Of a DNA stretch of 64,000 bases, positions 6,373 to 15,086 are shown one piece after another (the first letter of the stretch is position 1; each line of letters begins with the position of its first letter). Under the pieces are notes generated by a model. The model had not been told where the DNA came from, made no database searches, and worked only from the letters and a program-made list of their open reading frames with translations. Source of the DNA: Arenicella xantha. Its GTDB lineage: Bacteria > Pseudomonadota > Gammaproteobacteria > Arenicellales > Arenicellaceae. Both the position numbers and the translations under genes were made by a program. The stretch covers positions 62,001 through 126,000 of the forward strand of contig NZ_QNRT01000002.1 of assembly GCF_003315245.1 (NCBI RefSeq), in the 5' to 3' direction.

Positions 6373-7875
6373 TCAGAGCTGAATGCTGAAATCAATACGC
6401 TTTTTTACGCTAGCTGCGTCTTGCTCGCTTAGCTCGACGCTGGCCGCAATTATGTTAGTAAAATGTTTATCGTCCCATGTATTGTCGCCGCTTGAACAGT
6501 AAACATAAAGCTCTGGCGCGTCTTCAACGGCAATGTGATCGGCAATGTAAAGCGTCTCGATCAATTTTGAGTCCTCGCCTTTGCGTTGTATGGCGTAAGC
6601 TCCGTCAGTCGGTAGTACACTTTTACGACACAATAAACTGCCTTCCCATAGCCGTACATTCGAACAATATACTTTATCATTGTTGCGATGGTGAATTAGC
6701 CAACGGGGTAACACTGACGCGGGTTTATTCTGACGATAGATGACCTGCAGTTGCTTGGTAATGCGTTCTGGATGATACCAATCGTCATCGTCCCATTGGC
6801 AAATAAATTCACCGTGAGCGAGACCAATCGACAAATTTCGTAGCGCTCCTAAGCTGAGTTTTGGTTCGACCGGCACCACATGTAAGCGAATATTTGCAGC
6901 ATTTAGTTGATCTATATATTGGATTGTTGCTGTGTCGTCGGACTCGCAGACGATCAATAATTCGGTGTGCAAATAGCTCTGTGCTTGGAAGCAAGCTATC
7001 GCACGCTGCAAAGAGTTGACTCGGTTTCTGGTAACGCATAAACATGAGACCAGTGGTGAATCTTGACTAAGCGTCGATGAGGCCAGTTTCGCCGTTACAT
7101 ATTTCGCCTCAGAAGCATTCGTTGCTGAATCAGCTTGGGCGACTTGCTGATAGAACGACTGTGGTCGTTCATAGTACAGCGTTAATAAGCCGAGGTTTCG
7201 AATGTAATCATGTGACTCTTCAAGGCGCGGTGCGCTTGGTGGATGCCAGAGATGATAGGCCTGATGATCTAAACTAATCATATTTGAGGCAAAGTGAGCG
7301 ACCCGCTTTGAGATGGCGTCGTCTTCGCCGCCCCAACCTTCAAAACGTTCATCCATACCTCCGCAGACCTCAAAAAGTGCACGCGTCACGGCAAAGACAC
7401 CTCCACAAAACGGTGGATTCTGCCCGATTGATTTGCGATTTAGAAGTGCATCACTTCGCTCTATATGAACCGCGCTTGCATTGCTCAGTAGTTGTTGCGT
7501 TTCGTGTTCATCTAAATCTATCAGTGCGGTGTAAGGATTAATTGCATCGACATCACCGGCCATAAGCTGCGACATTTCTTGTAATGCTAATGCATCGATT
7601 AGCATATCTGAATCAGCTAATATCAAGCGCTCACAGTTAGCGTGTTTCGCCGCGATATTTAGCCCCCACGATTTGTTGAACGAACCTGCATTTTCGACAA
7701 AAATATAGCGTAAATTAGTTTGATCACCGACCTCAAAATGTGGGGACACATCCTGTTCTACCAAGATAATCTCTAAGCTTGAGTCGCGTGCCAGTTGGTT
7801 TAGCAAGTAGCGCAAGTTGTTACGTCGACTGGCGTCAGATTCGCGGTAAGTTATGAGGTAAGAGAAACGGTGCAT
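6373..7875 (-). CDS. Two-domain family 2 glycosyltransferase
   Basis: Two GT2-like catalytic modules are fused. The first (to about residue 230) has LILADSDML, the DxD metal/nucleotide-sugar motif, followed by GGMDERFEGWGGEDDAISKR, the galactosyltransferase-type acceptor segment (Glyco_transf_7C). The second begins near residue 275 at VSCLCVTRNRV and has QWDDDDWYHPER as its DxD motif. Both are predicted retaining- or inverting-type GT-A folds acting in the cytoplasm. I chose ATG 7875; the longer reading begins with TTG at 7893. It diverges from the small GT at 8055 and borders the glycosylation island, so a role in building the same glycan is inferred. Sugar specificity is unknown. Confidence 0.85.
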   Translation of the reverse strand: MHRFSYLITYRESDASRRNNLRYLLNQLARDSSLEIILVEQDVSPHFEVGDQTNLRYIFVENAGSFNKSWGLNIAAKHANCERLILADSDMLIDALALQEMSQLMAGDVDAINPYTALIDLDEHETQQLLSNASAVHIERSDALLNRKSIGQNPPFCGGVFAVTRALFEVCGGMDERFEGWGGEDDAISKRVAHFASNMISLDHQAYHLWHPPSAPRLEESHDYIRNLGLLTLYYERPQSFYQQVAQADSATNASEAKYVTAKLASSTLSQDSPLVSCLCVTRNRVNSLQRAIACFQAQSYLHTELLIVCESDDTATIQYIDQLNAANIRLHVVPVEPKLSLGALRNLSIGLAHGEFICQWDDDDWYHPERITKQLQVIYRQNKPASVLPRWLIHHRNNDKVYCSNVRLWEGSLLCRKSVLPTDGAYAIQRKGEDSKLIETLYIADHIAVEDAPELYVYCSSGDNTWDDKHFTNIIAASVELSEQDAASVKKRIDFSIQL

Positions 7876-8054
7876 GATTTTATTCGGTGTCAAAACAAGT
7901 CGAGGTTTGGCAAAATTTAGTGTCGCAGGTCATTACTGGAGTGTCGATTGAATTACGCGGCAAGCGAAGCTTTATTGAATTTAGGGTAAGATATCACGAC
8001 CTCCGATCATTGAGAGTCACTCAATGGATGACCTAATCTACAATTTAGCGCGCT

Positions 8055-8711
8055 ATGAACCAGACGACACCTCCAAACGTTTTGATCGGCACACCGGCTT
8101 ACAACGGCATGTTACACACCGACTATTTGCATGCGATCCTAGGATTTGCCAACAACGACATCCCGCACTCAGTGATGACGATTGGTAACGAAAGCCTGAT
8201 TACCCGAGCCCGCAATGCGATTTTAGCTACGTTCTGGGAGTCCGAGATATTTACTCATTTATTGTTTCTTGATGCTGACGTTTTTCTCGATCATCAAGGG
8301 CTAAAAGACATGTTGAACCATAACAAAGATGTTGTCGGTGCTCCGGTATTTCTGAAAAGTAAAACAGCTGCCGGTGAGCAAACGTTAAACACCGACGCTG
8401 ATCCTAAGCTAGCGCCGGTTCTGCAATCGGTCTCGCGCGTCGGTACGGCCGCGTTACTACTGTCGCGTGCGGCCGTTAATTCCTTAGTAGAGCACGCAGT
8501 AAAACAGGATCGGGTATATCAAATCAACAGTATGTTGCAACGTGAGGGAATGGCGAGTAACCACTACGATGTGTTTAGAGTGGGAATATCTAACGGCGAA
8601 TACTTGTCAGAAGATTTTTGGGTTTGCAAAGAATTAATTGAACTAGGCTACGAGGTTTTTGTGGATACCTCAGTCTATACTCGCCACCATGGCATGGTTT
8701 GCTTTGACTAA
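8055..8711 (+). CDS. Small GT-A type glycosyltransferase
   Basis: This 218-residue protein starts NVLIGTPAYNGMLHTDYL, a GT2-like N-terminal strand, and has HLLFLDADVFLD near residue 75, a DAD metal-binding motif. It resembles short GT-A proteins (Anp1/GT2-like) also found in phage and exopolysaccharide loci. There is no membrane helix, so it should be cytosolic. It is shorter than ordinary GT2 enzymes but appears complete: the ATG follows a stop-rich leader and the C-terminus ends in RHHGMVCFD. Neighbours on both sides belong to the glycosylation island. Donor and acceptor cannot be read from sequence. Confidence 0.72.
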   Translation: MNQTTPPNVLIGTPAYNGMLHTDYLHAILGFANNDIPHSVMTIGNESLITRARNAILATFWESEIFTHLLFLDADVFLDHQGLKDMLNHNKDVVGAPVFLKSKTAAGEQTLNTDADPKLAPVLQSVSRVGTAALLLSRAAVNSLVEHAVKQDRVYQINSMLQREGMASNHYDVFRVGISNGEYLSEDFWVCKELIELGYEVFVDTSVYTRHHGMVCFD

Positions 8712-8754
8712 ACCTATCCCTGTTTAACCTGAACCCTATTTAATTAACGTTAGT

Positions 8755-8785
8755 CTTATGCAGATCATAGCTAGATCTGCATAAG
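8755..8785. terminator. Bidirectional hairpin between convergent genes
   Basis: CTTATGCAGATC (8755-8766) and GATCTGCATAAG (8774-8785) are perfectly complementary, 12 bp with a 7-base loop. It sits between the converging small GT and Tat-protein genes. There is no U-run on either side. Confidence 0.5.
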
Positions 8786-8813
8786 AGCGGAAGCAAGGTG
8801 TTAACGCGTTAAT

Positions 8814-9638
8814 CTACGTCCAGTACGACTTTGACAAGCTAAAGTTAAACGCAACATTCGCGTTAGGGTTAGGCGTTGTCGTCGGCGTTGGGACGGCCGT
8901 TGTCGTCGGTGTGGCTGTAGTAGTTGGTGTCGCCGTAGTCGTTGGAGCTGCGGTAGTTGTTGGTGTAGCTGTAGTAGTTGGTGCTACGGTAGTCGTCGGT
9001 GTTGTCACAGCAGCACAAACTGGGTCAGCAGATGTCACAGTAAATGATCCACTGTCACCAAACCCACTTACTGTACCGGTACAGGTAGTTGGAGCACTTG
9101 CACTATCAAGCGTTCCACTTACTGTGTAGCCTGAATGGAGTCCACTAACATTCACCGAGGTACCACTGACTGTGCCTGTTTTTGTGTCAACGGCATTGGT
9201 ATTCAATGTCATTTCAACGGTAGCGACTGATCCCTCGACTGTAAGCAATACGCAACCGCCAGCCAATTCACCACTCGCCGCATGAGCTTCGCTAACAAAC
9301 ATACCTAGTATGTCACTTGCATCGAAACCTTTGTTATCGGCTTTAGTAACCAAAATACCACTACCGCCGCCCATCACAATGGCTGCGCCACTAGTTTGTG
9401 CATGGCTCGGTAAGATCACCGCATCGAGAATTGGCTTCTTCCATTTGTCCGCGATTAGGCCGGTTGAAATAACCGCCCCGCCGCCAATCAACGTACTTTT
9501 TAACAACTGGCGTCGATCATTTTTCTGATCAGCACCTAGAGCTTGATCTTGCTCAACGACTAAGTCAGGTGAGGAGTCTTTATTGGTGTTAGGCAGAACG
9601 CTGCTACCCGTTTTATTATTGTCTCTATTCTTGCTCAT
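8814..9638 (-). CDS. Tat-exported protein with mucin-like Pro-Thr repeat tail
   Basis: The 274-residue protein has a polar N-terminal leader (1-40), then DRRQLLK at 41-47 followed by a hydrophobic stretch and ILPSHAQTS near 75-83, i.e. a twin-arginine signal with an AxA-like cleavage site. The mature part is Ser/Thr/Gly rich (about 84-210) with cysteines at 129, 186 and 208. Residues 213-257 are nine or so PTTT-type repeats, a classic O-glycosylation-like sequence, before a short aromatic C-terminus NFSLSKSYWT. No known enzymatic domain is visible. It sits among four glycosyltransferase genes, which makes it the obvious candidate acceptor. Function is otherwise unknown. Confidence 0.75.
   Translation of the reverse strand: MSKNRDNNKTGSSVLPNTNKDSSPDLVVEQDQALGADQKNDRRQLLKSTLIGGGAVISTGLIADKWKKPILDAVILPSHAQTSGAAIVMGGGSGILVTKADNKGFDASDILGMFVSEAHAASGELAGGCVLLTVEGSVATVEMTLNTNAVDTKTGTVSGTSVNVSGLHSGYTVSGTLDSASAPTTCTGTVSGFGDSGSFTVTSADPVCAAVTTPTTTVAPTTTATPTTTAAPTTTATPTTTATPTTTAVPTPTTTPNPNANVAFNFSLSKSYWT
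8868..9002. repeat. Pro-Thr coding tandem repeat
   Basis: The region encodes PTTTAT-type hexapeptides on the minus strand, giving an approximate 18-bp period with synonymous variation among copies. The variation shows the array is not a very recent expansion. Confidence 0.85.
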
Positions 9639-9830
9639 CGTGATGTAATTTATCCGTTGATTTTGTGACTAGTCGATAATACTCAAATGACTAACTAATT
9701 GACAAGGCGTTATCGACTGATTCTCAATGCGATACACATTAATCTAAGGCTCAGCTGTCACTAAAACATCGTTCGTTGTTACATTGAGCTGAGTTACAAT
9801 GAGCTGAACCGATCGGACTATCGATTCAGT

Positions 9831-11645
9831 ATGATCCCAAAAATAATTCATCAAACATGGAAAACAGAGCAAATACCAGAGCAATGGAAATCATTCGCTG
9901 AGTCATGGAAATTACATCATCCTGATTGGGATTATATTCTCTGGACTAATGCTGATGGCCTTAGGTTTGTAGAGAGTTTTTACCCAAAATTTCTGCCCAC
10001 CTACTTAGCTTACCCTCACGACATACAGCGAGCTGACGCGATTCGATATCTTGTTATCCATCATTATGGCGGGCTGTACGTTGATCTTGATTTCGAGTGT
10101 TTACAATCATTCGAGCCGCTACTCAATACCAAACAACTTATTGCAGGCTTCGAACCGCAAAAGCACGCGAATCAACAGTCGCGTCCGGAAATGTTATGTA
10201 ACGCCTTGCTTGCTTCTCAACCTCGGTCTCCTTTTTTGCAAGCGGTTATCGATTTTTTAGCATCGAATAACACTAAGGGGTTTGCGCACGACATACTGGC
10301 AACTACCGGGCCAGTGATGTTGCAGTCGATCTACGAGTTGTCGAACAAGGTCGGTGTGGATGCACATCCAGCGATACGTTTCTATCCATTTGTCAATAAC
10401 GCACCGGAGTTATTACGGCTTGCTGAGAATTCTGCGACCAGTGAAAGTATCCGCGAAGAGTTGGTTAACTTAGGATGTTTTGCGGTTCATCATTGGGCGA
10501 ACTCTTGGCTTACTCAGTCATCTGAGGCGCTGTTAAATCCCGACCCCAAATCAATAAATGGATATGACTTCTATCCAAGGCAGGATTCTCCCGGCGCGGA
10601 TCTATTCAATGGTGGTAGAGATATCATGCTGTTAGCGGACCGCTGCCGCAATAATCCTAAGGTAGTGGCATTCAACACCAAAGGCTTTGCTAAACACACA
10701 ATTTGCGCTACCACTGACTTTCAGACCATGCTAAACGCGAAGTCTAATGAGGGCATCTACGTTAAACACAGGAACAATCCGTGGACCGAGCAATCAAATC
10801 AACCGCTGAGCATGCAGTTCGCTAATCTTACCGCGGTGGGGCCTAAACCGTTTCGGTTGTTTTTGGACGACGCAAATGATTCAACTGTGAGTCCATACAT
10901 TCGTCATAACCAAGTTTGGGAACCCGTGGAAACAGCGCTGATCAATAAACTTGTTGGGTCTGGTGACACGGTACTTGATGTCGGTGCGCATATTGGCTAC
11001 TTCACGGTGCTGCTGTCACAATTAGTCGGCCCGCATGGCAAGGTGTACAGCTTTGAGCCAGAGTTCGCTAATCACGCTCTACTCCATACCAATGTTTTGA
11101 CAAATTGTCTGCGCAACGTAACGATCGAAAATCAAGCAATCTCTAGCCATACAGGTGTCGCTGAGCTGTATTTGTCTAGCTATAACAAAGGCGACCATAG
11201 GATTGCGTTCACGCCGGGTCGAGAGGTGCAAAAAATTAGCCGGACTACGCTTGACGAGTACTTCGGGAATGATCCGGCGCCGGTGCATTTTATTAAATGC
11301 GACACGCAAGGTCATGAGCTAGATGTATTGCGTGGGATGCGCGGCATTATCCAACACAATTTAGAGCGCTTATGTTGCTTACTCGAGTTTTCTCCGAATC
11401 TATTAAATGCAACAAATATTGATGGAACTAGCCATTTCATTGAGTTTTTTAGCCGCTACGAAGCTGAAATATATTGGATTAACGAGGAATCTGGAAATCA
11501 TAAACTAGTATTTATGGATAAAGCAGCCCTGTACGACCTCGCGGGTATTATGGTGGATCACGAGGACTATGATTATTCCAATAACATGCTGGTATTTTTC
11601 AGCAAACAAGCTCGGCTCAGCTATTTTAAAAAATTAGGTTGGTGA
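9831..11645 (+). CDS. GT32-type glycosyltransferase fused to FkbM-type methyltransferase
   Basis: The N-terminus (IPKIIHQTWK) and YGGLYVDLDFECL (DxD at residues 85-87) mark a Gly_transf_sug/GT32 sugar transferase, about residues 1-240. A central segment (about 242-312) containing GYDFYP, DSPG and FNTKGFAKH looks like a PAN/apple-like binding module; this is an inference. From about residue 360 the protein is a class I SAM methyltransferase of the FkbM family, with DVGAHIGYF at 383-391, YSFEPE, and HFIKCDTQGHELDVL. FkbM enzymes commonly O-methylate sugars, so the fusion could both attach and cap a glycan. The gene is cytosolic by sequence and reads in the same direction as the 897-residue GT 150 bases downstream. 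Confidence 0.85.
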   Translation: MIPKIIHQTWKTEQIPEQWKSFAESWKLHHPDWDYILWTNADGLRFVESFYPKFLPTYLAYPHDIQRADAIRYLVIHHYGGLYVDLDFECLQSFEPLLNTKQLIAGFEPQKHANQQSRPEMLCNALLASQPRSPFLQAVIDFLASNNTKGFAHDILATTGPVMLQSIYELSNKVGVDAHPAIRFYPFVNNAPELLRLAENSATSESIREELVNLGCFAVHHWANSWLTQSSEALLNPDPKSINGYDFYPRQDSPGADLFNGGRDIMLLADRCRNNPKVVAFNTKGFAKHTICATTDFQTMLNAKSNEGIYVKHRNNPWTEQSNQPLSMQFANLTAVGPKPFRLFLDDANDSTVSPYIRHNQVWEPVETALINKLVGSGDTVLDVGAHIGYFTVLLSQLVGPHGKVYSFEPEFANHALLHTNVLTNCLRNVTIENQAISSHTGVAELYLSSYNKGDHRIAFTPGREVQKISRTTLDEYFGNDPAPVHFIKCDTQGHELDVLRGMRGIIQHNLERLCCLLEFSPNLLNATNIDGTSHFIEFFSRYEAEIYWINEESGNHKLVFMDKAALYDLAGIMVDHEDYDYSNNMLVFFSKQARLSYFKKLGW

Positions 11646-11795
11646 GCCACACGCGGATCAAATACTATTGGTCATTCGAGTCGACCATTTGTTTAAAGTC
11701 TCTACTTGGCTAACGGCCTGCGCAATAACTGGCACTAGCTTTACATCAGAAGATCAAGTCGGCTAATACACGTAAATAACGGTACCAAGTAATTT

Positions 11796-14489
11796 ATGAA
11801 AACTCAGATTCCGAAGCTTTTTCATTTTGTGTTCGGTTTAAAGGAACAGACCGAGCCCTTCCACTTGGCTTACTTTCTGTGTTTGAAATCGTGTATTGAG
11901 GTTAATAAACCCAGTGCGATTCACTTCTATTATCATCATGAACCTTACGGCGACTATTGGGAGCTAATCAAACCGCAATTGACGCTGATCGAGGTGCAGC
12001 TGGAATCCTTTGTGCAGGACAATAAGGCTTACGAAAATCATCAGGAAGGTCAGTTCATCAAGGCCGCGAAACTGGACTACGCTCACCAAACGGATTTTAT
12101 TCGACTCAAAAAGTTGATTCAATACGGCGGCGTTTATGCGGATATGGACACTCTGTTTGTGAATACTATTCCAGATGAGCTATATCAGCATCCGTTTGTG
12201 ATTGGCCGAGAGCAAGGCGTGACCGATACGCTGACTAAGCAACAGCGTCCATCATTGTGTAACGCTCTACTCATGGCCGAACCTAATTCCGCGTTTGCGA
12301 AAGCGTGGCTGCAAGCTAGTTACGAGTCCTTTGATGGCACTTGGAGCTCACATTCTTGTCAACAGGCGGCAACCTTAGCAGCTGAGATGCCGAATGAAGT
12401 TTACGTAGCGCCACAACGATATTTTTATAAGCACATGTGGACTCAACAAGGCATCAGTACATTGTTTGAGGGCTTAGATAACGACTTTGAACACGTTTTT
12501 AGCATGCATATGTGGAACCACTTATGGTGGGACAAGTCGCGAGTAGATTTTTCTGAGTTTCACTCAGGGCTAATTAATGAAGCAACTATACTAGCCGTTG
12601 ATACTACCTATAACGTTATCGCAAGACGCTTTTTGCCGGATCAAGCATCGAGAAAAAACATAATTAGACGAATCTTAAAGCTACCAGAACATGATGAACC
12701 AACACCTATGAAAAAATCATCTTCATCTATTCTAGTTCCTGAAATCGTCGATGGTTGGGAGCTGTCGTTAGAGCAAAGCCCTACTCGCTTTTTGCAGCGA
12801 ACTTCAGGTCAGTTTTTTGTCACTAATGACATTACTAATATGATTCTGGAGTATTGCGACGGCATTAATAGTGTCGAACGCATTATTCAACAGTTGCTTG
12901 AGCGCTTTCCCAATGATGGCGAAGACATCAGTAAGGACGTGCAATTAACACTGCGCGACCTGGCCCTCAATGGCGCAATTCGATTTAACCAGACCGCTAA
13001 GCAAGTAGCCGTTACACCAAGGTACTCGCCGCCTCCGGTCTCGTCTACTCAAGCCAAGTTATGCATCGGCATGGCGACTTATGACGACTACGATGGGGTT
13101 TATTTTTCAGTCCAAGCGATTCGTCTTTATCATCCGGAAGTATTGGATGACATTGAGTTTGTGGTGCTGGATAACAACCCTTCAGGAGTTTGTGCTGAAG
13201 CACTGCAGAGTTTAGGTCACTCAATGCCGAACTATCGCTATGTCCCCGGCGATAACTTTCAAGGTACATGGTCGCGATTTTCGTTGATCAATCAAACCAA
13301 TGCACCGTACATATTGTGTATTGATTCTCATGTAATGATTGCGCCTGGTGCGATTAAGCAATTATTGGACTATTTTGACACGCATCCTGACACCGCTGAT
13401 TTTTTACAAGGACCGTTAGTTAGTGATGACCTGGTGTCGCTGTCATCACATTTTACGCCGGGCTGGAGCGGAGGCATGTATGGTCAGTGGGCGAGCGACC
13501 CAAGGGCTGAAGACGCCGCTAACGATGCGTTTGAGATCCCGATGCAAGGACTCGGTTTATTTGCACTCAGACGCGACAATTGGCCTCAGGTTAACCCGCG
13601 TTTCAAAGGGTTCGGCGGTGAAGAAGGATATGTACAAGAGAAAATAAGACGGTCCGGCGGACGGGCTTTGTGTTTGCCATTTTTACGCTGGATACATCGT
13701 TTTAACCGTCCAATGGGGACGCGCTATGCGCTTAATTGGGAAGACCGAATCCGTAATTATCTGATTGCTCACCACGAATTAGCCACTGACCCAAACGAGA
13801 CTATTGAACACTTTAAATCCCATATAGGGGCAACTGAGACAGCAAATATAGTTGCTAGAGTTGAGTCTGAAATAGCTAACCCGTTTTATTATTTTGATGC
13901 CATTTATTGCATTAATAAAGATACTGCCGTTGAGCGATGGAACCTTGCTAAGCAGCAGTTTGAGGCGCTTAACATCAGTCACCGGGTACAGCGCTTGTCA
14001 GCCATCGAAACACCGCAAAACCATCAGATAGGTCGCGCGCTTTCGTATCGAAGTATTATTCAGTTGGCGAGCATGAATAAATTTAACAACGTACTGATAC
14101 TGGAGGATGACGTTGTTTTTGATTCAAACACGCTCAACAATCTAGCTCAAAGCCTAGCGCACCTAAGCAGCGTAGATTGGGACATTCTGTATTTAGGTAC
14201 AGGCCTGCAAGATAATCAAGGTCACCGCGTAGCAAGCGATGAATATGCTCGCGAAGTCACACGAGACGACGAATTCTCGGCCAAGGCGCTGGTTGTCAAA
14301 GCGTCAAGCTATGAGTCAATTCTAAATGGGCTGCCTGACAATGCTGATGAAATGGCCAGATACATTAAGCTATATCAGCCGTCAATAGACCACCATCTTG
14401 CTGCCGTTGGCGCACTGAGTCAGTTTGTTGTGGAAGCATCGTTGGTCAACCAATCAGTGGCTATCGACCGCAACCACAAGTCGAGCTAA
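11796..14489 (+). CDS. Four-part glycosyltransferase with PqqD-like peptide-binding segment
   Basis: Domains in order: residues 1-270, Gly_transf_sug-like with YGGVYADMD (DMD 116-118); about 314-398, a PqqD-like winged-helix segment (FFVTNDITNMILEYCDGINS, then IIQQLLERF and DVQLTLRDLALNGAI), the fold used as a RiPP recognition element; about 420-665, a GT2 domain with CIDSHVMI, a DxH at 510-512 instead of DxD, and GFGGEEGY at 606-612, features reminiscent of polypeptide GalNAc-transferases (GT27); about 700-890, a GT25-like domain with LILEDDVVF near 768-775. The combination suggests an enzyme that binds a peptide and adds several sugars. There is no signal peptide, so it acts in the cytoplasm. 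The PqqD and GT27 likeness is by eye and needs a profile search. Confidence 0.8.
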   Translation: MKTQIPKLFHFVFGLKEQTEPFHLAYFLCLKSCIEVNKPSAIHFYYHHEPYGDYWELIKPQLTLIEVQLESFVQDNKAYENHQEGQFIKAAKLDYAHQTDFIRLKKLIQYGGVYADMDTLFVNTIPDELYQHPFVIGREQGVTDTLTKQQRPSLCNALLMAEPNSAFAKAWLQASYESFDGTWSSHSCQQAATLAAEMPNEVYVAPQRYFYKHMWTQQGISTLFEGLDNDFEHVFSMHMWNHLWWDKSRVDFSEFHSGLINEATILAVDTTYNVIARRFLPDQASRKNIIRRILKLPEHDEPTPMKKSSSSILVPEIVDGWELSLEQSPTRFLQRTSGQFFVTNDITNMILEYCDGINSVERIIQQLLERFPNDGEDISKDVQLTLRDLALNGAIRFNQTAKQVAVTPRYSPPPVSSTQAKLCIGMATYDDYDGVYFSVQAIRLYHPEVLDDIEFVVLDNNPSGVCAEALQSLGHSMPNYRYVPGDNFQGTWSRFSLINQTNAPYILCIDSHVMIAPGAIKQLLDYFDTHPDTADFLQGPLVSDDLVSLSSHFTPGWSGGMYGQWASDPRAEDAANDAFEIPMQGLGLFALRRDNWPQVNPRFKGFGGEEGYVQEKIRRSGGRALCLPFLRWIHRFNRPMGTRYALNWEDRIRNYLIAHHELATDPNETIEHFKSHIGATETANIVARVESEIANPFYYFDAIYCINKDTAVERWNLAKQQFEALNISHRVQRLSAIETPQNHQIGRALSYRSIIQLASMNKFNNVLILEDDVVFDSNTLNNLAQSLAHLSSVDWDILYLGTGLQDNQGHRVASDEYAREVTRDDEFSAKALVVKASSYESILNGLPDNADEMARYIKLYQPSIDHHLAAVGALSQFVVEASLVNQSVAIDRNHKSS

Positions 14490-14499
14490 TGTGGGCTTC

Positions 14500-15086
14500 A
14501 CCGCTGAGCGAGTAAAGAATTGTCCGGCCACAGGTGCTGAGTATGCCAAGCAACCTGGTCATCAAGTCAACATAGTCATCAAGTTCAACATAGTCATCAA
14601 GTTCAACATAGTCATCAAGTTCAACATAGTCATCAAGTTCAACATGGGCAATTAGCAGCTCTCCCCAGTGGCCCTCGCACATTTGACGTCATTACACTGT
14701 GGCATGTTCCATCCCCACGAGAGTTGCTGGAGGACATTCGATACCACCTCTCACCAAATGGGATTTTGGCAGTTGCCATACCTAATGAATTAGCTCCGCT
14801 GCTGAGAGTCAGAGTCATTGCTTCAAATCATCTGCCAGTTGCTCGGCACGCTCTAGGCGAGTTTAGATTTGTAGAAGAAATCCATTTAACCCACTTTACC
14901 CCAAGATTGTCAAAGGCACTTCTTCAACAACGTGATTTCAAGATTCTAGCGTTTGGAGTAGACGATGTTCACGTAGATAGAACCGTCTACACGACAGTTA
15001 AATATCACGCTAATCGTGTAATCAATGCGCTGACGAACACGCATTTCGATAGTGCGATGTACGTCATTTGTTCACCGAATAGATAA
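14500..15086 (+). pseudogene. Decayed class I SAM-dependent methyltransferase
   Basis: The 3' part reads as a clear Methyltransf_23-type C-terminal half: FDVITLWHVPSPRELLEDI, then LSPNGILAVAIPNE and EIHLTHFTPRLSKALLQQ. No start codon, no glycine-rich SAM motif I, and an in-frame stop at 14538 precede it. Upstream sequence GAEYAKQPGHQV in another frame is a plausible continuation of the same protein, joined by a one-base deletion in the first copy of the 18-bp repeat. The usual V-L-E-H after LWH is missing, as if deleted between short direct repeats. The last 15 bases overlap the convergent TPR gene. It was probably a sugar methyltransferase of the glycosylation island. A TTG-initiated 120-residue product from 14724 could still be made but would lack the SAM site. 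Confidence 0.7.
14560..14648. repeat. 18-bp tandem repeat inside the methyltransferase remnant
   Basis: Five copies of CATCAAGTTCAACATAGT. Copy 1 (14560-14576) lacks one T and is 17 bases; copies 2-4 are exact; copy 5 diverges at its end. In one frame they encode repeated HQVQHS, matching a GHQVQHG-like loop expected in the parent methyltransferase. Confidence 0.9.

Follow-up and report, generated by a model that had tools for sequence, protein, structure and literature searches.

Four kinds of described system come closest to the locus considered here: eukaryotic mucin-type O-glycosylation (glycosyltransferase, GT, family GT27), the pathways for ribosomally synthesised and post-translationally modified peptides (RiPPs) such as pyrroloquinoline quinone (PQQ) and the lasso peptides, fusions of a RiPP recognition element to a glycosyltransferase, and the HPr-rel-A gene sets (NCBIfam TIGR04352/TIGR04353) together with lasso phospho-glycosylation. 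The locus lies in Arenicella xantha (genome of 4.44 Mb, 99.3% complete), within the 64,000-nucleotide stretch C2:62001-126000, here called the window. It encodes an 897-aa enzyme that joins a PqqD domain to several GT domains and, close by, a protein with a twin-arginine translocation (Tat) signal and a Thr/Pro repeat tail. The cassette probably represents a dedicated bacterial system for the dense, mucin-type O-glycosylation of Thr/Pro tails on Tat-exported proteins, guided by a RiPP recognition element (RRE) and acting in the cytoplasm.

According to the relevant sections of PMC7185993, families GT27 and GT60 share polypeptide Ser/Thr O-glycosylation and carry DxH in place of DxD, with the metal bound by a C-terminal His in GT27. 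A ricin-type lectin domain is described at the C-terminus of GT27 enzymes (PMC4202792, in part), and a passage of PMC10939349 mentions one archaeal protein annotated as a polypeptide N-acetylgalactosaminyltransferase. On the peptide side, W/Y/LxxP/L/I is given in part of PMC12710340 as the sequence that RRE groups including PqqD recognise, a report based partly on prediction. There are lasso peptides on which an HPr-like kinase and a nucleotidyltransferase modify a C-terminal Ser (PMC8498205, relevant section).

The locus shares with eukaryotic mucin-type systems a GT-A fold with the polypeptide N-acetylgalactosamine (GalNAc)-transferases as the best-matching family, DxH and a final His, and, as proposed, Thr/Pro-rich acceptor tails and glycosylation before the protein reaches the surface. 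Unlike GT27 systems, it is bacterial, has only 14-17% identity to them, shows no ricin-type lectin domain that could be found and carries PqqD and further GT domains in fusion; the proposed cytoplasmic action followed by Tat export would set it further apart. With RiPP pathways it has in common the PqqD fold, a W..P motif in the N-terminal segment and a precursor encoded beside the enzyme, whereas here the N-terminal segment doubles as a Tat signal and the candidate core is a long repeat tail. HPr-rel-A sets combine an HprK-like protein, PqqD and a nucleotidyltransferase, which in some relatives, and elsewhere in the A. xantha genome itself, accompany the same leader class; in contrast, PqqD is the only one of these found in the window's cassette, and the scores lie below the NCBIfam cut-offs. 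Neither an HprK-related kinase A nor a nucleotidyltransferase was found among the window proteins scanned, nine with Pfam and seven with NCBIfam.

The original prediction had presented the joining of a PqqD-like module to GT domains beside a Tat substrate as undescribed. This needs narrowing, since an RRE-glycosyltransferase fusion alone is not new: such fusions are named, in part of the RRE-Finder paper (PMC7470986), as not present in known classes, and RREs fused to PF00535 glycosyltransferases are mentioned in a section of PMC12710340. These share the joining of an RRE to a glycosyltransferase; the sections concerned mention neither a substrate nor a leader, and neither the Tat route nor a fold like that of GalNAc-transferases. 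The family of the 897-aa enzyme may be among them. For the system as a whole the claim stands, no description having been found in the open-licence PubMed Central literature, the field covered (subscription papers and preprints fall outside it). The parts are of known kinds, namely an RRE, the Tat route and a GT-A domain.

The domain content and fold of the enzyme, its conserved residues and the co-localisation of GT, leader, tail and PqqD were all obtained by computation. Along the 897-aa protein, Pfam places a GT32-like domain (PF04488, Gly_transf_sug, 37.7 bits, residues 68-130), PqqD (PF05402, 30.4 bits against a cut-off of 23.4, residues 337-394), the GT-A domain (PF00535, Glycos_transf_2, 33.8 bits, residues 425-593) and a GT25-like domain (PF01755, Glyco_transf_25, 27.7 bits, residues 693-803), in that order. 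The PF05402 match bears out the predicted PqqD-like segment, for which a missing match had been named as grounds for rejection; the NCBIfam PqqD model scores 36.2, below its cut-off of 46. A full-length AlphaFold model made without an alignment was unusable (mean predicted local distance difference test score, pLDDT, 33.9) and was replaced by one of the 392-residue PqqD and GT-A unit (residues 306-697), built on an alignment of 60 rows. This model reached a mean pLDDT of 90.7 and a predicted template modelling score of 0.74, even though, in that alignment, the PqqD-only rows displayed (6 of 12) had been placed wrongly, under the GT domain.

The likeness between the GT-A domain and the mucin-type polypeptide GalNAc-transferases, which the model and profiles suggest, goes beyond what was first proposed. 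In an alignment of 52 GT sequences (the window's included, L004 and L017 dropped as duplicates), D510, H512, G607, E609, E610, W632 and H634 are present in 52/52 and G608 in 47, so that the GT27 features of DxH replacing DxD and a C-terminal His are found throughout. Alignment A1 comprises 50 of these 52 sequences, L015 and L044 being excluded. A profile search of the PDB returned 6h1j, which we take to be TarP, at E 2e-4, GalNAc-T10 at E 4e-4 and chondroitin synthase at E 0.05, and the match to GalNAc-T10 aligns DSH, GGE and the final His of the two families; as a single sequence, the GT part found GalNAc-T10 alone (E=0.6). By structure, polypeptide GalNAc-transferases occupy ranks 1-29 of the 50 PDB entries listed by VIA-align (Z 19.3-22.2, 246-262 residues, root-mean-square deviation 3.0-3.6, 14-17% identity), followed at rank 30 by GlfT2 (Z 17.5), and all 50 rows among the matches listed by Foldseek belong to the same family. 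These structure lists cover the GT part (model residues 112-392), the PqqD part having been assessed by sequence profile. No ricin-type lectin domain gave a Pfam match up to E=1 at the C-terminus, where the GT25 match stands instead, and the claim is therefore one of a GT27-like enzyme rather than of a GT27 enzyme. A fold match by itself does not establish function; because the modelled fold is combined with the DxH shared by GT27 and GT60, a polypeptide appears the likeliest acceptor.

For the PqqD domain, all 16 members of alignment A4 match PF05402 (they were picked by profile), and the family profile gave seven PDB matches at E <= 0.1, every one of them PqqD, PqqC/D or a PqqD-family/lasso B1 protein. 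TbiB1 and TfuB1, presumably lasso B1 proteins, are among them. The modelled elements (E8-12, E16-19, E26-29, a short E35-37, then H40-48, H55-65 and H70-86) follow the RRE order of three strands and then three helices. As in RiPP pathways, a precursor leader with a recognisable motif is encoded beside the RRE enzyme.

The neighbouring protein has the predicted Tat signal and Pro/Thr tail, with R42 R43, W66-K-K-P69, P77-S-H-A80 and Thr/Pro repeats; an 18/36-bp tandem repeat at 8896-9002 lies within the DNA of the tail. The twin-arginine pair, hydrophobic stretch and AxA-type site are visible in the sequence and conserved among related leaders, the Pfam TAT_signal match being 12.0 bits, below its cut-off of 22.7. 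Alignment A2 (28 leaders chosen by regular expression, 4 near-duplicates dropped, 24 aligned) has the consensus RR..LK...W..P......P.HA, in which the invariance of W..P and P.HA is partly built in, as the expression required both. A further A[HY]A site resembling a cleavage site, no more than 70 residues from the first, was also considered; present in 14 of 107 leader proteins and 4 of 52 control windows, it was not clearly enriched and was dropped.

A genome-contig scan with the 897-aa protein found 52 loci, most matching the GT part only. The closest cassette (L005) retains the 506-aa and 218-aa genes, the Tat protein and the GT32/FkbM fusion, and its 1314-aa enzyme has the same four domains with a GT4-type domain in front. 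Profiles were run over 48 GT-holding genomes, two Streptomyces genomes (L044, L055) being left out of the leader search, and gave 55 GT genes in 48/48 genomes and 98 leaders, all mapped to sequence, in 25 of the 48. Of these leaders, 34 (in 19 genomes) are at most 8 kb from a GT gene, where 0.50 would be expected by chance. A few weak leaders look spurious (e.g. G282:C133) and G283:C46 has in-frame stops; all were retained, on the far side. The neighbourhood test proposed at the outset thus favours co-occurrence, and the Thr-rich tail goes with the GT as well: the last 40 residues contain at least 7 Thr in 28/34 near and 7/64 far leader proteins (Fisher p 2e-12), and at least 12 in 17/34 and 0/64. 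The median length past the P.HA site is 49.5 residues in near and 129.5 in far proteins, and several near proteins therefore consist almost entirely of a leader and a Thr/Pro tail.

PqqD follows the same distribution, occurring within 8 kb of 31/34 near and 6/64 far leaders. Within 8 kb of the 55 GT genes there are PqqD and leader at 19, PqqD only at 9, leader only at 2 and neither at 25 (Fisher p 4e-6). One cluster (L016, 7365-13662) has four sugar-enzyme-like genes with PqqD segments, three above the Pfam cut-off: GT2-type (30.3 bits), the GT gene (15.0, below the cut-off), PIG-L-like (41.4) and GT32-like (28.5), with the GT2-type and PIG-L domain matches themselves slightly below cut-off. 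Among 274 genomes of the class, the GT was found in 3 and leaders (E 1e-8) in 6; PqqD (E 1e-5) occurs in 5/6 leader-bearing genomes against 69/268 others (p 0.006), three of the six (the window's and two of the 48) being already in the earlier counts. Leaders and PqqD also occur in two genomes of the same genus as the window's, in which neither such a GT (at E 1e-30) nor a tandem PTTTxxPTT repeat (0 and 1 single match) was found.

Independently of the leader, a six-frame count of open reading frames (ORFs) with at least 8 Thr in 20 residues, some of them not genes, gave 41 within 3 kb of the GT (265 kb searched) and 5 at 5-10 kb (312 kb); those near the GT occur at 34 of 52 loci, the window included. 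Distance (near versus far) and a reversed DNA pattern served as controls. In the window's genome, the codon pattern PTTTxxPTT has 13 sites, all in two leader proteins beside its only two such GTs (5 in the window's Tat protein and 8 beside the second GT gene, C2:29836-29987). With the sites confined to these two Tat proteins and the reversed pattern occurring 0 times, the tail pattern is beyond chance. At this second locus (L059), the leader protein has TTTSAP repeats and an overlapping ORF joins the GT to tetratricopeptide repeats (TPRs), not to PqqD. Across the 274 class genomes the pattern matches in 38, with tandem matches listed for the window's genome only.

Several observations weigh against this interpretation. 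The GalNAc-transferase similarity is a fold match only, at 14-17% identity, and by sequence profile 6h1j is slightly ahead of GalNAc-T10 (E 2e-4 vs 4e-4); no fold was obtained for residues 1-300 and 700-897. To the motif selection behind A2 must be added that same-cluster paralogues (L027, L033, L049) and the near-identical L016/L017 genomes inflate the leader counts; counted per GT gene, a leader is near 21 of 55. PqqD is not obligatory: 25/55 GT genes lack both PqqD and leader within 8 kb, the GT genes at G317:C96 (L051) and G274:C197 have a leader and no PqqD within that distance, and so does the second GT gene of the window's own genome. In the 47 other genomes, PTTTxxPTT matches 53 times against 70 for the reversed control, and the bare frequency there is therefore no evidence. 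Only tandem clusters are telling in these genomes, the clustering of the control not being shown; of the ten found (hand count), 5 are no more than 8 kb from a GT and another two lie in leader proteins of genomes with the GT elsewhere (G290, G292). Leader homologues without the GT, which the original prediction had counted as adverse, do exist, since 64/98 lie more than 8 kb away or on another contig; their force is lessened in that 57 of these 64 lack the Thr-rich end. Because most leader proteins have neither tail nor GT, the leader is a wider tag, and it is the tail rather than the leader that marks the GT substrate.

The same data bear on a reading in which the GT glycosylates the Thr/Pro tails and PqqD serves otherwise, through oligomerisation or another partner, with W..P needed only for cleavage or folding of the Tat signal. 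W..P stands just before the cleavage site in every A2 row (partly by row choice) and recurs in leaders far from any GT, and the leaders without PqqD within 8 kb, at two GT genes of the 48 genomes and at the second copy in A. xantha, fit this reading too. It accords poorly with the absence of W..P from other Tat-like segments of the same loci (0/22, a small, filtered set compared with leaders that were partly motif-chosen), with the co-occurrence of PqqD and leader at GT genes, with the joining of PqqD to four sugar-enzyme-like genes in L016 and with the W/Y/LxxP motif reported, partly by prediction, for RRE groups including PqqD (PMC12710340, in part). We consider it improbable.

Polysaccharide loci commonly contain GT32-, GT25-, GT2- and FkbM-type genes, and the cluster could on this account make a surface or capsular polysaccharide, the Thr/Pro-tailed protein being an unmodified carrier or a linker that lies nearby by chance. 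The GT fold and DxH point instead to a polypeptide acceptor, Thr-rich tails track the GT, and in certain loci of Streptomyces and Bryobacterales the GT is likewise adjoined by Thr-repeat ORFs that lack this leader. Neither a flippase nor a polymerase domain was found among the nine window proteins scanned with Pfam, and a polysaccharide product is accordingly quite unlikely.

Still less credible is phosphorylation or phospho-glycosylation as the real task with the GT secondary, for, despite the lasso kinase and nucleotidyltransferase precedent (PMC8498205, in part), the likeness to HprK-related kinase A before the GT domain in L025, L027, L030 and L045 (the four tested; 74-89 bits, cut-off 200) and a set elsewhere in the genome that places an HprK_rel_A-like protein with PqqD and NTP_transf_5 close to a leader protein, the window's enzyme shows no such kinase domain in Pfam or NCBIfam scans and the Thr-rich tail follows the GT.

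Two tests that could have failed, the PF05402 match and the neighbourhood comparison, thus support the interpretation first offered, that of RRE-guided glycosylation of the tail before Tat export. In the scheme that we infer for leader binding, sugar, linkage, order of events and fate after export, the precursor would be made with a Tat signal carrying W..P in its distal part, and the PqqD domain of the 897-aa enzyme would bind this segment in the cytoplasm, as RREs bind leaders. The adjoining GT-A domain, with DxH and the further His as putative metal ligands, would then add the first sugar to Thr residues of the tail, after which the glycan would be lengthened by the enzyme's own GT32-like and GT25-like domains together with the GTs encoded nearby, and perhaps methylated by the FkbM domain. 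Tat would export the product, with signal peptidase cleaving after SHA80; the Tat route is expected because glycosylation before export needs cytoplasmic nucleotide sugars. We give about even odds to a broader statement, that this is a widespread bacterial counterpart of mucin biosynthesis, in which a GalNAc-transferase-like enzyme is steered by PqqD to W..P in the Tat signal and glycosylates Thr/Pro in the cytoplasm ahead of Tat export, the same tag serving many other cargos and lineages exchanging the module that steers it (PqqD in fusion; a separate PqqD where the GT has an HprK-like part; TPR; a PqqD-like domain on the substrate).

If the proposal is correct, bacteria possess a form of mucin-type O-glycosylation that steers its substrate by a logic of its own, and this would bear on the origin of polypeptide GalNAc-transferases. 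It would also define a RiPP-like class that is exported by Tat and modified with sugar, supply an enzyme set for making glycosylated Thr/Pro tails in bacteria, and offer a first handle on the W..P...PAHA leader class, which reaches up to 14 per genome and for which no explanation was found in the open-licence PubMed Central literature searched.

The variants among relatives are diverse. At least 150 residues precede the GT domain in 36/52 GT proteins, and a loose Walker-A match was seen in 22 of those 36, several of them probably spurious. In L038:8825-9706 (Bryobacterales), L013:1787-2716 and L015:2153-3118 (Microthrix), a PqqD-like domain and a Tat-like stretch seem to be combined with Thr-rich repeats in one protein, the PqqD scores of 17.8, 12.5 and 15.6 bits all being below cut-off. 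The constant pair seems to be the GT and a Thr/Pro repeat, with the export route and the steering module varying. In Streptomyces (L036, L044, L055), Pro/Thr repeat ORFs (PPVTTT and similar) without a visible export signal lie upstream of the GT, and L050 has a Sec-type protein with an APTTT tail beside it.

By analogy, the HprK and nucleotidyltransferase variants hint that proteins of this one leader class may be modified in parallel ways. In A. xantha itself (L003, about C1:1048599) and in L067, an HprK_rel_A-like protein, PqqD and an NTP_transf_5 gene stand in a row, some 2.6 kb from a leader protein without the PTTTxxPTT repeat; these may be a second PqqD set acting on the same leader class.

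Table 1. Positions of the cassette's features within the window.
Feature	Position	Strand	Basis
506-aa protein with two GT2-type stretches, one with Glyco_transf_7C	6373..7893	-	Pfam; kept in L005
Small glycosyltransferase-like protein, 218 aa	8055..8711	+	Sub-threshold Anp1/GT21 matches; kept in L005
Candidate substrate, Tat-exported, 274 aa, comprising an N-region, a twin-arginine signal that includes WKKP, the SHA cleavage site, a middle part and a Thr/Pro tail	8814..9638	-	Sequence; homologue in L005
Thr/Pro repeat tail (PTTTxx units), candidate O-glycosylation region, residues about 211-258	8865..9008	-	Sequence
Leader segment RR..LLK...W66KKP69...P77SHA80	9390..9527	-	Alignment
W66-P69, candidate PqqD recognition motif	9432-9443	-	W/Y/LxxP motif (PMC12710340, in part)
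GT32-like (Gly_transf_sug) glycosyltransferase and FkbM-type methyltransferase fusion	9831..11645	+	Pfam, NCBIfam; kept in L005
GT32-like (Gly_transf_sug) domain of the 897-aa enzyme, residues 1-290, YADMD DxD motif	11796..12665	+	Pfam, sequence
PqqD / RiPP recognition element-like domain, residues 311-403	12726..13004	+	Pfam, model, profile
GT-A domain resembling polypeptide GalNAc-transferases, residues 415-690	13038..13865	+	Alignment, profile, model, structure lists
GT-A motifs D510-x-H512, GGEE 607-610, H634	13323-13331 (D510-x-H512); 13695-13697 (H634)	+	
GT25-like domain, residues 693-897	13872..14486	+	Pfam
C-terminal remnant of a class I methyltransferase	14676..15086	+	Partial Methyltransf_23 match

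The gene content around this enzyme agrees with the first description of the locus. The ORFs noted between 6373 and 15086 are present at their assigned positions, and Pfam confirms at least three glycosyltransferase genes within 9 kb, with GT domain matches in 11796-14489, 9831-11645 and 6373-7893. The GT matches of the 218-aa protein are all sub-threshold, the best being Anp1 (22.7 bits, cut-off 28.8). The suspected sugar-methyltransferase-type fusion proved to combine Gly_transf_sug with FkbM. The broken methyltransferase is real as well, its match covering only positions 81-162 of the 164 in Methyltransf_23 (25.9 bits, cut-off 27); it is probably not functional and has no match in L005 at E 1e-3. 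No cyclase, radical SAM enzyme or leader protease was found among the nine window proteins scanned with Pfam. An 18-bp tandem repeat (14558-14645, 4.9 copies, 98% match) immediately precedes the methyltransferase remnant.

Other arrangements were seen among the relatives. An AraC-type regulator fused to a PqqD domain (L027:5738-7210) lies in a cluster with four leader proteins, and the genome that holds L019 (G287) has 14 leader matches, one of which adjoins the GT. In L026:8342-10945, a DUF6065 domain (290 bits) precedes the HprK-like and GT parts within one protein.

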